NCBI GenBank assembly: GCA_902584995.1
Contig: CACICF010000009.1
Coordinates: forward strand, 1-64,000
Direction: 5' to 3'
DNA length: 64,000 bases
DNA from: an uncultured Pelagibacteraceae bacterium
GTDB lineage: Bacteria > Pseudomonadota > Alphaproteobacteria > Pelagibacterales > Pelagibacteraceae
The translations under genes were made by a program, and so were the position numbers. This document shows positions 35,077 through 59,920 of the stretch, one piece after another (the first letter of the stretch is position 1; every line of letters begins with the position of its first letter). The notes below the pieces were generated by a model that saw nothing but the letters and a program-made list of their open reading frames with translations, had not been told where the DNA came from and searched no databases.

Positions 35077-35475
35077 CTAATTTTTAATGCACTTCTTGCA
35101 TAAACCAAAAAATTCTAAATTATATTTGCTATATTTCATGCCTTTATTATCTTTATAATGTTTCAAATGCTCAGATAATTTATGATCATGAATCTCTTTT
35201 ACATCTTCACAGTTTTCACAAATTGAAAAAACTGTTGCTTTGGTAATTTGACATTTTGAATTCTTGCAAGCTATAAAGGCATTCCTACTTTCTATTTTAT
35301 GTATTTTTCCAATCTCTACCAATTTGTCCAAAGCTCTATAGACTTGTAAAGGAGCATTAATTCCTTTTTTTTTAACATCAAATAAAATTGAGTATGCTTT
35401 TAATGGTTGAGAAGATTTTTCAATTATATCTAAAACTATTTTTTGATTTTTTGTTAATACTTGTTGATTTTGCAT
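35077..35475 (-). CDS. zur: Fur-family zinc uptake regulator Zur
   Basis: 132-aa winged-helix repressor. The DNA-binding half contains LTKNQKIVLDIIEKSSQPLKAY and APLQVYRALDKLVEIGKIHKIE. The dimerisation half has two CxxC pairs (ICENC about 105 and LCKKC near the end) that hold the structural zinc, plus histidines in KEIHDHKLSEHLKH. The neighbours znuB and znuC (same strand) and znuA (divergent) identify it as Zur rather than Fur. The gene ends the znuC-znuB-zur operon, which would make it self-regulated. Confidence 0.88.
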   Translation of the reverse strand: MQNQQVLTKNQKIVLDIIEKSSQPLKAYSILFDVKKKGINAPLQVYRALDKLVEIGKIHKIESRNAFIACKNSKCQITKATVFSICENCEDVKEIHDHKLSEHLKHYKDNKGMKYSKYNLEFFGLCKKCIKN

Positions 35476-35498
35476 TTTCTATTTTTATCAATTGATCA

Positions 35499-36302
35499 TT
35501 AGTTTTTCAATTGTATCGTTTGTTTAATTTTGAATAATGAAATAATAAATAAAATCAAAGCAGCTGCCACGATTGAGGGCCCTGATGGTGTATTGAATTC
35601 TAACGAAGAAAATAATCCTAAAAATACTGACAACAACCCTCCAATTATTGAAAATATAACCATCTTCTGAGGGTTATCAGATATGTTTCTAGCCATTGCG
35701 GTTGGGATAATTAATAATCCTGTAATAAGTAATAATCCAACCATTTTGATAGAAATTGCAATAATTGCAGCTATTAATATTGTAAATATTGCTTTAGCCC
35801 TGTCAGGTTTTAGACCTTCCGCTTCAGCTAATTCGTAGTTTACTGTTGAAGCAAATAAAGGTTTCCAAATTAATTTTAAAACCAATAATATTATAGCTCC
35901 ACCAATCCAAATTATAAGCAAATCATCTGTTGTTACAGCTAATATATCTCCAAATAACAATCCCATGATATCAAATCTAATAAATGTTAAAAAGCCGATA
36001 ACAACTAAACCAACGGCAAGTGATGAGTGAGCTAGTAGTCCTAGCAAAGCATCACCAGGTAAATTAGTTTTTCTTTCAAGTTTTACTAAAATTAATGCAA
36101 TAATTGATGAAGTAATAAAAATTGCAACAGCAATATTAAAATCTAGAGTGTATGCAATTGTTACACCTAGTAAAGCTGAGTGGGCGAGAGTATCCCCAAA
36201 ATATGATAATCTTCTCCAAACAACAAAACATCCAAGAGGACCTGTTACCAAAGCAATTCCAATTCCTGCAACTAAAGCTCTTATAAAAAAATCATCAAAC
36301 AT
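35499..36302 (-). CDS. znuB: Zinc ABC transporter permease ZnuB
   Basis: 267-aa inner-membrane permease of the metal ABC-3 family with eight or so hydrophobic segments. Family marks include ALVAGIGIALVTGPLGCFVVWRR at the N-terminus, YFGDTLAHSALLGV, and VGLLLITGLLIIPTAMARNI near the end. The start is one base after the znuC stop, so the two are translationally close. It transports zinc delivered by ZnuA. Manganese transporters share the fold; zinc is favoured by the adjacent Zur and the histidine-rich ZnuA. Confidence 0.92.
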   Translation of the reverse strand: MFDDFFIRALVAGIGIALVTGPLGCFVVWRRLSYFGDTLAHSALLGVTIAYTLDFNIAVAIFITSSIIALILVKLERKTNLPGDALLGLLAHSSLAVGLVVIGFLTFIRFDIMGLLFGDILAVTTDDLLIIWIGGAIILLVLKLIWKPLFASTVNYELAEAEGLKPDRAKAIFTILIAAIIAISIKMVGLLLITGLLIIPTAMARNISDNPQKMVIFSIIGGLLSVFLGLFSSLEFNTPSGPSIVAAALILFIISLFKIKQTIQLKN

Positions 36303-37049
36303 TTAATTTTTCTTTATCTTTCCATCAATTGAATGTTCATGGTCATGTTTGTGCTCATAAACAGATAGTGTTTGAGAAGCTTGTTCCCCAAATAATGCTT
36401 TGTACTCATTATTTCGTGCTACGTCTTTTGGAGAACCTGAACAACATACGTGTCCATTTAAACAAACAACATGATCAGTAGCACTCATTACTGTGTGTAG
36501 ATCATGAGAAATTAATAATATTCCACAATTAAGTTTTTCAGAAATTTTTTTAATTAATTCATAGAGAGCAATTTCACCTGTGAAATCAACTCCTTGAACA
36601 GGTTCATCAAGAACTAATAATTCTGGTTTTTTTGAAATAGCTCTTGCAAGCAAAACTCTTTGAAATTCACCCCCTGATAAATTTCCTAAATTTTTTTCTT
36701 TAAGATGTATAACACCGGTTAATGTCAAAGCCTCATCTATCAATTCATCTTTAATATTATCTGTCAAAACCATTAAATCTTTGACTCTTAAGGGGAGAGT
36801 CCAATCTATCGATATTTTTTGAGGGACATATCCTATATTGTTTGTTAATTTTTCAACATTTCCCTCTATGTTTTTGTATATACCTAAAGCAATTTTAGCT
36901 GTTGTACTTTTCCCAGAACCATTGGGCCCAATTAAAGTTACTATTTTTCCTTTTTCAACCTCTAGCGAAACTCCTTTTACGAGCCACTTGTCATTTTGTT
37001 GGATCCCAACATTATTTAACTTTACTAATATATTTTTTTTTAAACTCAT
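36303..37049 (-). CDS. znuC: Zinc ABC transporter ATPase ZnuC
   Basis: 248 aa from the ATG at 37049; a TTG six codons upstream is possible but lies next to a regulatory palindrome. Walker A GPNGSGKSTTAKIALG, Q-loop GYVPQKISIDWTLPL, signature LSGGEFQRVLLARAI and Walker B LLVLDEPVQGVD are intact. The C-terminus has a histidine cluster (EHKHDHEHS), often seen in ZnuC and possibly metal-binding. It is first in the operon with znuB and zur and is transcribed from the shared Zur-controlled region. Confidence 0.93.
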   Translation of the reverse strand: MSLKKNILVKLNNVGIQQNDKWLVKGVSLEVEKGKIVTLIGPNGSGKSTTAKIALGIYKNIEGNVEKLTNNIGYVPQKISIDWTLPLRVKDLMVLTDNIKDELIDEALTLTGVIHLKEKNLGNLSGGEFQRVLLARAISKKPELLVLDEPVQGVDFTGEIALYELIKKISEKLNCGILLISHDLHTVMSATDHVVCLNGHVCCSGSPKDVARNNEYKALFGEQASQTLSVYEHKHDHEHSIDGKIKKN

Positions 37050-37069
37050 ATATCCACTTGACTTCAAGA

Positions 37070-50227: not shown

Positions 50228-51120
50228 TGAATAATATTTCCTTTAACAAATTCTATAGAAAATTTAATATCTTATCTCTCATTTTAATAATAACTTCCTT
50301 AATATTTCTTATCATTAAAGGTTTGAATTATGGTGTTGACTTTAAAGGAGGAACTTTAATTGAATTAAGAACAAATGATAAAACTAATAATATAACTATG
50401 ATCAGAGATAGTTTTAATCAAATGAATTTGGGAGACGTATCAGTTAAAAAATTTGGTAATGAGACAGATTTTATAGTTAAATTTGAAAAACAAAATTCAA
50501 ACGATCCAGAATTTATTAAAAATATTCAAAATAAATTATCCAGCTCTATAGGAGATGTCGATTTTAGAAGAGTAGAAAACGTTGGACCAAAAGTAAGTTC
50601 AGAACTTCTAAAATCTGGAATTATTGCTATAAGCTTATCTTTAGCTGCAATGCTGTTGTATATTTGGATTAGATTTGAGTGGCAATTCAGCTTAGGAGCA
50701 ATATTAGCAATATTTCATGATGTTATTATAACTTTAGGAATATTCTCTATTTTCTCTTTAGAAATTAATTTATCAATAGTGGCCGCTGTATTAACTATAG
50801 TTGGGTATTCAATGAATGACACAGTTGTTATATTTGATAGAGTTAGAGAAAATTTAAGAAAGTATTCAGATACTAAAATTTATGAATTAACAAATATTTC
50901 AATAAATGAAACTTTATCAAGAACAATAATAACCTCAGTAACTACTCTTCTAGCTTTATTATCCATATATTTATTTGGTGGTGAAATTCTTAAAGGTTTC
51001 TCTTTAGCAATGATTTTAGGTGTAATATTTGGAACATATTCATCAATATATATAGCTAATCCAGTTTTAGTTGCACTAAACGTGAGCCAAAGAACAATTG
51101 TTAAAGAAGAAAAAGATTAA
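50227..51120 (+). CDS. secF: Protein translocase subunit SecF
   Basis: 297-aa partner of SecD. The start region has GLNYGVDFKGGTLIELRT, a short periplasmic domain follows, then the channel helices with VGPKVSSELLKSGI, IFHDVIITLGIFS, VGYSMNDTVVIFDRVREN and TSVTTLLALLSIYLFGG, all typical of SecF. It is translationally coupled to secD (TAATG). The 3' end overlaps the convergent membrane-protein gene by 4 bases. Confidence 0.94.
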   Translation: MNNISFNKFYRKFNILSLILIITSLIFLIIKGLNYGVDFKGGTLIELRTNDKTNNITMIRDSFNQMNLGDVSVKKFGNETDFIVKFEKQNSNDPEFIKNIQNKLSSSIGDVDFRRVENVGPKVSSELLKSGIIAISLSLAAMLLYIWIRFEWQFSLGAILAIFHDVIITLGIFSIFSLEINLSIVAAVLTIVGYSMNDTVVIFDRVRENLRKYSDTKIYELTNISINETLSRTIITSVTTLLALLSIYLFGGEILKGFSLAMILGVIFGTYSSIYIANPVLVALNVSQRTIVKEEKD

Positions 51121-51719
51121 TACAAATTTTGAGCTACAACCATCGATAACAACATCGGCAAAGATAGTAAAGTATTCGTTCTAGAAAATAACATTGCAGT
51201 TTTTGCTGATTTTGCCTTAACATCTGGTTCAACCGTTACAATACCCAAAGCTTTTTTTTGATTAGGCCAAATAACAAACCAAACATTAAAAGCCATGATT
51301 ATTCCAAGCCACATACCAATTCCAATAGCCGTAGCTTTACCACCACCTGATCCAATTCCAAGGGCCATAGCTTGATGAACATAACCATTTATATATGCTA
51401 ATATAAGTCCAGAAATTACTGTGAATAAAGCTGCCCATCTAAACCAAAATAGTGCTGCTGGTGCAATCACTTTTCCAATAGCTGGTTTTTGCTCATCTGG
51501 AATTTTAGCCATATTAGGTATTTGTACAAAATTAAAATACCAAAGTAATCCTATCCACATGATGGCTACAATTACATGTATGTATCTAAATAACCAACTC
51601 CAAAAAACTAAATCGATATCAAAACCACCGTTTCCAAAATACAAACCAAGGAATAGTAAGATTGATAGTGCCAAAGAAACGTGAATAGTTTTTGATAAAG
51701 ATTGAAGAATCGATGTCAT
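51117..51719 (-). CDS. PuuD-like membrane protein (urate-oxidase N-terminal family)
   Basis: 200 aa, about five hydrophobic segments with conserved histidines: SKTIHVSLALSILL, FRYIHVIVAIMWIGLLWYFNFVQIP and a tryptophan-rich helix NVWFVIWPNQKKALG. The RxxHVIxxxxWIGxLWYFNFVQ pattern resembles the membrane domain named after urate hydroxylase PuuD. No cytochrome c domain is attached, and no purine genes are near, so urate as substrate is doubtful. Histidines within helices could bind haem. Many marine bacteria carry a stand-alone version of unknown role. Confidence 0.6.
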   Translation of the reverse strand: MTSILQSLSKTIHVSLALSILLFLGLYFGNGGFDIDLVFWSWLFRYIHVIVAIMWIGLLWYFNFVQIPNMAKIPDEQKPAIGKVIAPAALFWFRWAALFTVISGLILAYINGYVHQAMALGIGSGGGKATAIGIGMWLGIIMAFNVWFVIWPNQKKALGIVTVEPDVKAKSAKTAMLFSRTNTLLSLPMLLSMVVAQNLY

Positions 51720-57747: not shown

Positions 57748-58241
57748 TGAAAAATATTGCTATATATCCAGGTACATTTGATCCTATTACCAATGGACAT
57801 ATTGACGTAATTAAAAAAGCTCTAAAATTAGCAGATAAAATTATTGTAGGTATTTCTGATGGAAATCAAAAAAATTTTTTGTTTCCTATTGATGAAAGAC
57901 ATAAAATCGTATCAAAAGCTTTATATAATGATCTAAAGTTTCCAAAAAACAAAATTCAAGTTATTAAATTTAATTCTTTAACAACTGAATTGTGTAAAAA
58001 ATATAAATCAAACCTAATATTAAGAGGTTTAAGAGCAGTGTCAGATTTTGAATATGAGTTTCAACTTGCTGGAATGAATAGAAAATTAAATAATAAAGTT
58101 GAAACAGTTTTTCTTATGTCAGATGTTGAAAATCAAATTATTTCCTCTCGTTTTGTAAAGGAAATTGCGATACATAAAGGTGATTTAAGAAAATTCACAA
58201 CAAAAAGTACAATAGAATCTTTGAAAAAAATCTATGCTTAA
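57747..58241 (+). CDS. coaD: Pantetheine-phosphate adenylyltransferase
   Basis: 164-aa enzyme of the penultimate step of coenzyme A synthesis. The nucleotidyltransferase motif is IYPGTFDPITNGHIDVIKKA (T/HxGH with H19-type histidine). LRGLRAVSDFEYEFQLAGMN and SSRFVKEIAIHKGDL are family marks. Full length. It overlaps gyrA by one base and the peptidyl-prolyl isomerase gene by 8. Confidence 0.95.
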   Translation: MKNIAIYPGTFDPITNGHIDVIKKALKLADKIIVGISDGNQKNFLFPIDERHKIVSKALYNDLKFPKNKIQVIKFNSLTTELCKKYKSNLILRGLRAVSDFEYEFQLAGMNRKLNNKVETVFLMSDVENQIISSRFVKEIAIHKGDLRKFTTKSTIESLKKIYA

Positions 58242-58791
58242 AAAAACAATTATTTTAATTATATCAATATTATTATTAACAACAGCTTTAAAGGCAAAGG
58301 AGAATATTATGATACTTAAGTTAAAAGATGGAGATGTAAAAATAGAATTATTTCCAGAAGTAGCACCAAACCATGTAAAAAGAATAACTGAGTTAGCCAA
58401 TAGTGGAAAATATGATGGAGTAGTTTTCCATAGAGTGATTGATGGTTTCATGGCTCAAACTGGAGATGTTCAATTTGGAAATTCATCATCTGATAATTTT
58501 AATTTAAGTAGGGCAGGTATGGGTGGATCTGATTTACCTGACCTCAAAGAGGAATTTAATGATTTGCCACATGAAAGAGGGACTTTGTCTATGGCAAGAT
58601 CTTCAAATCCAAATAGTGCCAATAGTCAATTTTTTATTTGCTTCGGCCCAACTCCACATTTAGATAGACAATATACTGTATTTGGTAAAGTTCTAGAAGG
58701 AATGGAGTTTGTAGATATGATAACAAAAGGGGACGGACCAAATGGGTCTGTTTCAAATCCAGATAAAATAATTAGTTTTAAATCTGAGTAG
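58234..58791 (+). CDS. Exported cyclophilin-type peptidyl-prolyl isomerase
   Basis: 185 aa. The signal peptide is about residues 1-22 (KKTIILIISILLLTTALKAKE), so the enzyme acts in the periplasm. The cyclophilin core is complete: FHRVIDGFMAQTGDVQ with the catalytic arginine, RGTLSMARSSNPNSANSQFFICF and LDRQYTVFGKVLEGM. The order coaD-ppi-tgt is common in alphaproteobacteria. It may fold exported proteins delivered by Sec or Tat. Confidence 0.92.
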   Translation: MLKKTIILIISILLLTTALKAKENIMILKLKDGDVKIELFPEVAPNHVKRITELANSGKYDGVVFHRVIDGFMAQTGDVQFGNSSSDNFNLSRAGMGGSDLPDLKEEFNDLPHERGTLSMARSSNPNSANSQFFICFGPTPHLDRQYTVFGKVLEGMEFVDMITKGDGPNGSVSNPDKIISFKSE

Positions 58792-58801
58792 ATTTTAATG
58801 G

Positions 58802-59920
58802 ATGGAAGACATAAAAAAGAATTTTTCTTTCAGCGTAAAACATCAAAACAAAAATTATCGTGTTGGATTAATTCAAACTCATCGTGGAGAAATAGATACA
58901 CCTGCTTTTATGCCTGTAGGAACTCAGGCTACTGTAAAAGGTGTTTTTATTGATGATATAATAAAGACTGGTAGTCAAATTATTCTTTCTAATACTTACC
59001 ACTTAATGATCAGACCTGGTACTGAAAGAATAGAGGCTGTTGGGGGTCTTCATAAATTTATGAATTGCAAACTTCCTATTCTAACTGACTCAGGAGGCTA
59101 TCAGGTTATGTCTTTATCTAAATTTAACAAAATCGATAGAGACAAAGGAGCAATTTTTCAATCTCATATAGATGGAAAAACTTTCATCTTAAGTCCCGAG
59201 GAAAGTATTAAAATTCAAAAAAAACTTAATTCAGATATTGTTATGGTAATGGACGAGTGTCCAAAAAATACTAAAGATTACAACAAAATTAAAAACTCTA
59301 TGGAATTATCTACAGAATGGGCAAAAAGATCCAAGGATGAATTTGGAAATAATCCAAATAAAGCATTGTTTGGTATTGTTCAAGGAGGTTTGTTTAATGA
59401 TCTTAGAATTGAGTCTTTAAAAAAATTAATTAATATAAAATTTGACGGGTATGCAATTGGAGGTTTGGCTGTTGGAGAAACTCAAAAAGAAATGTTTGAT
59501 GTTTTAGATGGCATTAAAGACTATTTACCTGAAGATAAACCAAGATATTTAATGGGTGTAGGAACGCCATCAGATATATTGGGAGCAGTAAAAAGAGGTA
59601 TAGATATGTTCGATTGTGTTTTGCCAACTAGGTCAGGGAGAACAGGATTGGCTTTTACGTGGAACGGAAGAATTCAAATTAGAAACTCCGAGAACAAAAA
59701 TAATAATTCACCTCTAGATAGCAATGTGACAAAATTTGATTTAAACAAGTATTCAAAAAATTATCTGAATCACCTACACAATACTAACGAGATGTTAGCC
59801 TCAATGATTTTAACCCTAAATAATATAAATTTTTATCAAGAACTTATGTATGAAATTAGAAAAAATATTAAAATGGGAACTTTTGAACAATTTCATGATA
59901 AGTATATTAATATTTTGTAA
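58802..59920 (+). CDS. tgt: Queuine tRNA-ribosyltransferase lacking the zinc ligands
   Basis: 372-aa TIM-barrel enzyme that exchanges guanine-34 of GUN-anticodon tRNAs for preQ1. The catalytic parts are intact: LTDSGGYQVMSL, VMDECP, GIVQGGLFNDLR, YAIGGLAVGE, and the nucleophile region GIDMFDCVLPTRSGRTG. The C-terminal zinc site is not: the segment equivalent to the CxCxxC motif reads PLDSNVTKFDLNKYSKNYL (59711 onward), with valine, lysine and leucine at the cysteine positions, and the later histidine is asparagine (codon 59819). The frame is otherwise perfect. It is the last gene of the ssb-tgt run; queA is not nearby. Confidence 0.93.
   Translation: MEDIKKNFSFSVKHQNKNYRVGLIQTHRGEIDTPAFMPVGTQATVKGVFIDDIIKTGSQIILSNTYHLMIRPGTERIEAVGGLHKFMNCKLPILTDSGGYQVMSLSKFNKIDRDKGAIFQSHIDGKTFILSPEESIKIQKKLNSDIVMVMDECPKNTKDYNKIKNSMELSTEWAKRSKDEFGNNPNKALFGIVQGGLFNDLRIESLKKLINIKFDGYAIGGLAVGETQKEMFDVLDGIKDYLPEDKPRYLMGVGTPSDILGAVKRGIDMFDCVLPTRSGRTGLAFTWNGRIQIRNSENKNNNSPLDSNVTKFDLNKYSKNYLNHLHNTNEMLASMILTLNNINFYQELMYEIRKNIKMGTFEQFHDKYINIL

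Follow-up and report, generated by a model that had tools for sequence, protein, structure and literature searches.

A tRNA guanine transglycosylase of Pelagibacteraceae that retains none of the four zinc ligands and probably works without the metal

Can a bacterial tRNA guanine(34) transglycosylase (Tgt) do without its structural zinc site? The zinc domain is called a hallmark of TGTs in PMC6165067, and TGT is said to need zinc for activity in PMC9508795, which cites mutagenesis of the E. coli enzyme (Chong 1995); as cited, this work makes it likely that at least one such enzyme suffers when ligands are lost. The question is raised by the tgt gene within a 64,000-nucleotide stretch of DNA from an uncultured Pelagibacteraceae bacterium, referred to here as the window (Table 1). 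An initial annotation had noted that all four zinc ligands were missing from this gene and had proposed a functional, zinc-independent enzyme, a change that as zinc sparing would suit a surface-ocean organism.

Table 1. Positions of the tgt gene, its informative codons and the neighbouring or zinc-related genes in the window.
Feature	Positions	Strand	Basis
FUR-family (Zur-like), ABC-3 permease (ZnuB-like) and ABC ATPase (ZnuC-like) genes	35080..37067	-	PF01475, PF00950, PF00005
Peptidyl-prolyl isomerase gene, directly upstream of tgt	58234..58791	+	ORFs and spacing; name read from translation
tgt (tRNA guanine(34) transglycosylase), 372 aa, zinc site absent	58802..59920	+	TIGR00430, PF01702, AF2 model
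Codon of D96 (Asp102 equivalent), catalytic	59087..59089	+	D in 233/233 intact and 194/194 other rows
Codon of D271 (Asp280 equivalent), nucleophile	59612..59614	+	D in 233/233 intact and 191/194 other rows; remaining 3 are gaps
Codon of V309, place of Cys318	59726..59728	+	gap-free alignment; V in 15/15 clade members, four different codons
Codon of K311, place of Cys320	59732..59734	+	gap-free alignment; K or R in 15 clade members
Codon of L314, place of Cys323	59741..59743	+	gap-free alignment; L in 15/15 clade members
Residues 317-325, including Y317/Y321/H324, counterparts of Trp326/Tyr330/His333	59750..59776	+	conserved in ligand-poor rows
Codon of N340, place of His349	59819..59821	+	gap-free alignment; N in 15/15 clade members

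The product matches the TIGR00430 equivalog with 449.2 bits (cut-off 306.75) over residues 10-370 and PF01702 with 468.1 bits, and is a full-length bacterial Tgt. Its PDB matches include chains 10fa-10fc, which are a Tgt. The translation carries GGLAVG at residues 220-225, the preQ1-type pocket motif as opposed to GG[LS][AS]G under the rule given in PMC11570991. By fold, catalytic residues and model score the protein is a Tgt, but not a zinc Tgt. A search of the window's own genome, which is about 80% complete, returned this single match, and a second, zinc-bearing tgt copy was rejected on that basis; no other copy having turned up, the zinc-less gene is not a backup paralogue. Across the genus, one Tgt match each was obtained in 74 of the 76 genomes with a match, the other two showing a weak second match (G005) and a tgt in two pieces (G025). 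The latter SAR11 locus (G025:C34:186-1279) reads as two overlapping pieces with a stop; either the gene is broken or the assembly is at fault there. Elsewhere in the window, a protein encoded on the minus strand at 51120-51719 gave a partial match of 58 bits to PF06181, the urate oxidase N-terminal domain.

In phmmer alignments, the window Tgt runs gap-free through the zinc site of four Z. mobilis Tgt chains (6ygl, 1y5v, 5i00 and 1enu), and V309, K311, L314 and N340 face Cys318, Cys320, Cys323 and His349, respectively, the Z. mobilis residue numbers being counted from chain positions in the alignment. These four Z. mobilis residues are taken here to be the zinc ligands, in agreement with the ligand pattern of human QTRT1. 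The QTRT1 pattern itself is given in PMC6165067. The window Tgt therefore has V, K, L and N in place of the C-x-C-x2-C motif and the later histidine, and the loss of all four ligands, first aligned by eye, is confirmed. Cysteine was sought from residue 296 to the C-terminal end and none was found, so the zinc site has not simply been moved, and relocation of the ligands within the domain, which had been named as a finding that would overturn the claim, was rejected.

The rest of the gene is intact. The catalytic residues Asp102, Asp156, Gln203, Gly230 and Asp280 have their counterparts in D96, D151, Q194, G220 and D271, and in an all-row comparison these are as well conserved in ligand-poor as in zinc-type Tgt, save for two to three gapped rows. 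The Z. mobilis dimer hot spot, comprising Phe92, Trp326, Tyr330 and His333 (PMC5395182), is matched by F86, Y317, Y321 and H324, with Trp326 to Tyr as the only change, and these residues are conserved in ligand-poor rows. The median dN/dS over 105 pairs of 15 same-clade genes was 0.041, with many pairs near synonymous saturation, and was 0.02-0.03 for the three nearest relatives of the window (pS 0.29-0.39). Mean pN among the 15 clade genes was 0.024 in the former zinc segment and 0.036 over the whole gene, and V309 is maintained through GTG, GTC, GTA and GTT codons; from both observations it follows that the replacement residues are themselves under selection. The AF2 model of the window Tgt reached a pLDDT of 92.9 (91-97 in blocks 301-340) and superposed on Z. 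mobilis 1pud with an rmsd of 1.2 A over 366 residues (Z 56.3, 54% identity), placing the predicted model in the TIM-barrel Tgt fold with a TM of 0.96. AF2 tends to return the family fold with or without the metal, and the model says nothing on the presence of zinc. A pseudogene was rejected by the dN/dS of about 0.04, and with the catalytic residues kept and a confidently modelled fold, the initial view of an open frame with an intact core holds.

The loss extends well beyond the window. The SAR11 (Pelagibacterales) set comprised 97 loci (L001-L050, L111-L117 and L119-L158), including the window's own gene, of which 95 are distinct, the identical pairs L040/L154 and L050/L137 probably stemming from the same genome in each case; the sample is uneven, the best matches to the window having been fetched first. 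All 97 lack at least two ligands, with 49 keeping two, 15 one and 33 none. The remaining ligands differ between lineages. The window's genus (57 loci) retains the first cysteine and the histidine in 22 loci, one ligand in eight and none in 27; the same pair is kept in genera g5 and g6 (seven loci), except for one locus with the first cysteine alone; genera g2-g4 of the same family (eight loci) keep the second cysteine and the histidine (VCSH, ICSH); and the sister family (five loci) keeps the third cysteine and the histidine (SNCH). The remaining 20 loci come from named records that carry no genus or family codes. If cysteines were not regained, the SAR11 ancestor had all four ligands, which were then lost in at least three ways. 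The window's clade is one end point, with no ligand left. No Tgt match was found in eight of 149 high-quality genomes of the order, which incompleteness may explain.

Among 136 other alphaproteobacterial families, sampled at about one genome each, 108 had an intact site, 23 were ligand-poor, three mixed and two ambiguous, giving ligand-poor Tgt in 26 of 136 families; as the site is intact in 108 of them, it is useful in most families. Ligands are absent from Mesorhizobium, Rhizobium, Agrobacterium and Caulobacterales loci, and from all 30 loci nearest to a ligand-poor Brucella Tgt query, a biased choice from a single order, regarded here as Hyphomicrobiales since one of its members, L226, clusters with loci bearing names from that order. 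In the other Pseudomonadota, all 69 readable Tgt keep the four ligands (70 loci read, one being a broken copy that stops short of the site), or 32 of 32 by family, and the contrast with the Alphaproteobacteria by family gave a Fisher p of 0.003 with relatedness ignored. The survey covered the Pseudomonadota; at most one copy was read in each of seven genomes of the class with two Tgt matches (G302, G307, G452, G469, G479, G496 and G563). Nine Tgt loci on viral contigs, with at best 53% identity to the window Tgt, included five readable at the site, of which four are intact and one reads GTGH. The latter, on predicted viral contig L382 (1001-2059), has G, T and G for the three cysteines and keeps the histidine.

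The alignment comprised 427 rows, three of them containing X (L370, L372 and L375), and 421 were readable at the four columns (all but L312, L383, L385, L386, L387 and L389): 233 intact, 186 ligand-poor and two ambiguous (L248 and L315), the last two being dropped from the tree labels and from the counts of losses. The 186 ligand-poor rows keep three ligands in one case, two in 74, one in 72 and none in 39, the window's gene being counted twice among these 39 (as WINDOW and L001). Many other genomes thus lack ligands too, which settles the concern that this sequence might stand alone. A quick tree of 220 representatives (140 intact, 78 ligand-poor and two ambiguous), calculated with the zinc columns left out and omitting the partial L018, had support below 80 on 80 of its 217 inner branches. 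The fewest state changes on this tree were 18; collapsing the branches with support below 80, 95 or 98 in the most favourable manner brought this to 16, 12 or 8, respectively. The site was thus lost several independent times, and appears to have been dismantled stepwise. The replacements are patterned as well. Among representatives, alanine at the third cysteine goes with a residue other than histidine at the histidine position in 27 of 27, and serine goes with histidine in 24 of 31 and with asparagine in the other seven (Fisher p of about 2e-10 over 94 representatives, relatedness ignored). We read this covariation as a sign that the two positions remain packed against one another, in a core that was replaced and did not decay. 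The ambiguous L315 (from G538) reads HHTH in the four ligand columns and may have a metal site built from histidines.

The substrate context was considered next to the zinc site. The interval that separates tgt from the peptidyl-prolyl isomerase gene upstream of it (58792-58801) holds no queA, a gene that adjoins tgt in several relatives such as G106, and queA was found in none of the 29 Pelagibacteraceae genomes searched; tgt without queA holds for part of the SAR11 order. All five genomes of the SAR11 sister family have the gene, as do 28 of the 32 ligand-poor genomes tested outside SAR11 (G538 was left out as ambiguous), so ligand loss does not in general stem from loss of queA, and a tie between the two losses, tested across genomes, was not found. 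The window's genome does encode a QPTR-type transporter (G000:C1:34259-34666, L118; PF02592, 83 bits), which fits preQ1 salvage. Neither the window nor the QPTR gene locus gave a preQ1 riboswitch match that reached the Rfam gathering threshold. In PMC11570991, Bartonella and Pelagibacter are proposed to salvage preQ1 through Tgt and QPTR, and the Tgt of B. henselae, which like that of the window lacks an accompanying queA and has a preQ1-type pocket, complemented an E. coli queDF tgt mutant supplied with preQ1, although only partly. The zinc state of the B. henselae enzyme would follow from the Bartonella-like locus L337 (G805), one of the 30 loci nearest to the Brucella query, which has the Tgt state SCAN and no queA match and is AT-rich (locus GC 0.35, genome 1.5 Mb). 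Its tgt is separated from a peptidyl-prolyl isomerase-like gene by some 430 bases in which every one of the six frames has stops; the resemblance to Bartonella is itself a judgement from these features, and G805 shares its family code with several genomes of 6 Mb and more. The word zinc is absent from the main text of PMC11570991. For S. meliloti, PMC3568095 describes phenotypes of tgt mutants and no rescue of them by preQ1. Published genetics thus show Tgt of Sinorhizobium and Bartonella to work in vivo, and by analogy with related loci both would be ligand-poor.

Why the zinc went is a separate matter. The initial annotation considered that zinc sparing would suit a surface-ocean organism; on this reading, selection in the zinc-poor surface ocean removed the site to save metal. 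The zinc uptake context that the annotation invoked is present, with Zur-like and ZnuB/ZnuC-like genes (PF01475, PF00950 and PF00005) in the window, and the window's genome encodes zinc-less ribosomal proteins L31 and L36 with one match each (L429 and L449). The proposed cause is nevertheless unsupported, since ligands have been lost in Mesorhizobium, Rhizobium and Agrobacterium and CCCH is kept in two SAR116 genomes (L082 and L099). Judging by their names, we take the former to be soil- or plant-associated and the latter to be marine. L31 lacks cysteine in 14 of 14 alphaproteobacterial genomes and L36 has at most one in 27 of 28 (the exception being G327), against three cysteines in 11 and two in three of 14 other Pseudomonadota (L31/L36 loci L428-L485). 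Among alphaproteobacterial genomes, L36 is zinc-less in seven of eight that have zinc-type Tgt and in all 20 that have ligand-poor Tgt, and its state therefore does not track the change in Tgt. A neighbouring M48 peptidase, moreover, retains the HEXXH motif in translation. Sparing of zinc for the surface ocean is accordingly improbable; a weaker form of it, class-wide zinc frugality, may hold, and a class-wide tolerance for the loss of structural zinc sites fits better than an ocean-specific adaptation.

Other readings of the gene itself fare worse. If the enzyme mattered less without QueA, constraint might have been relaxed and the zinc site might be eroding on the way to loss of the gene; the absence of queA from 29 of 29 Pelagibacteraceae genomes, the eight high-quality genomes of the order that gave no Tgt match, with the caveat of incompleteness, and the tgt in two pieces in G025 would agree with such decay. 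The strong purifying selection, with the pN of the former zinc segment even below that of the gene overall, and the presence of queA in most ligand-poor genomes outside the family (28 of 32 and five of five, as above) speak against it and make it very improbable. It is barely more credible that ligands left over at the site, or residues of its second shell, still bind zinc or another metal, if only in partly depleted forms such as SCSH and CNLH. The 74 rows with two ligands and the one with three would allow this, and the HHTH form could use its histidines, but all four ligands are missing from the window's protein, whose subdomain has no cysteine, and the leftover pairs vary by lineage and dwindle to a single ligand and then to none, a pattern to be expected of residues that have ceased to bind. 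Sequencing error or misalignment, finally, has next to no standing: the alignment is gap-free, V, K or R, L and N recur in all 15 clade genes, and 39 of the 186 ligand-poor rows lack every ligand, so chance and error are excluded and this reading is refuted. The comparison with other SAR11 Tgt and with solved structures that the initial annotation had called for thus upholds the ligand loss.

What remains, and is in our view probable from sequence and model, is a working, zinc-independent Tgt in which side-chain packing and dimer contact hold the former zinc loop. The functional part of the original proposal stands in this sense, for the gene is intact and under selection and its product cannot hold zinc in the classical way, and the surface-ocean cause does not. 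In tRNAs with GUN anticodons, the enzyme would replace guanine-34 by a 7-deazaguanine, for which salvaged preQ1 is the likeliest candidate. In Z. mobilis Tgt, the zinc site lies on the loop next to the helix from which the homodimer interface is formed; in the window's protein, presumably metal-free and active, Val309 and Leu314 against Asn340 may fill the former metal site and keep the course of the loop, with the dimer partner still clamping the neighbouring aromatic helix. The site was taken apart repeatedly, and probably stepwise, in the Alphaproteobacteria, where the zinc sites of L31 and L36 are also absent. A broader proposition, to which we give even chances, is that the structural zinc of Tgt is dispensable and that Alphaproteobacteria dismantled its site separately some dozen times or more, in the course of a class-wide loss of structural zinc sites that included those of L31 and L36.

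Set against known systems, the window Tgt resembles Z. mobilis Tgt (1pud) in fold, as far as the predicted model goes, in catalytic residues and in the GGLAVG pocket, and differs from it in having V/K/L/N for Cys318/320/323 and His349. The Tgt of Hyphomicrobiales (SCAN, SCSN, SCSH and SSAI in Mesorhizobium, Brucella and Agrobacterium loci) is likewise ligand-poor with the catalytic core kept, but represents a separate loss on the tree, usually with serine at the first cysteine and often with the second cysteine kept. A parallel outside the enzyme family is given by the zinc-less (C-minus) L31 and L36, in which a structural zinc site was replaced and function presumably kept. In E. coli the C-minus L31 and L36 are Zur-regulated second copies, whereas the zinc-less forms in the Alphaproteobacteria read are the one match per genome. 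A report of a zinc-less Tgt was sought in open-licence PMC papers and none was recognised; subscription papers could hold one.

If part of one bacterial class runs Tgt free of zinc, the rule that the enzyme requires zinc is not general. The ligand-poor set offers independent replicates of the loss of a structural metal site, with intermediates that keep from zero to three ligands, and, should the broader proposition be true, these stepwise intermediates would form a natural series in which a metal staple was replaced by packing. The finding also bears on the targeting of the dimer interface beside the zinc loop and on counts of the zinc need of abundant marine bacteria; under the same proposition, the step of the queuosine pathway in which the base is inserted into tRNA would have been freed of zinc.
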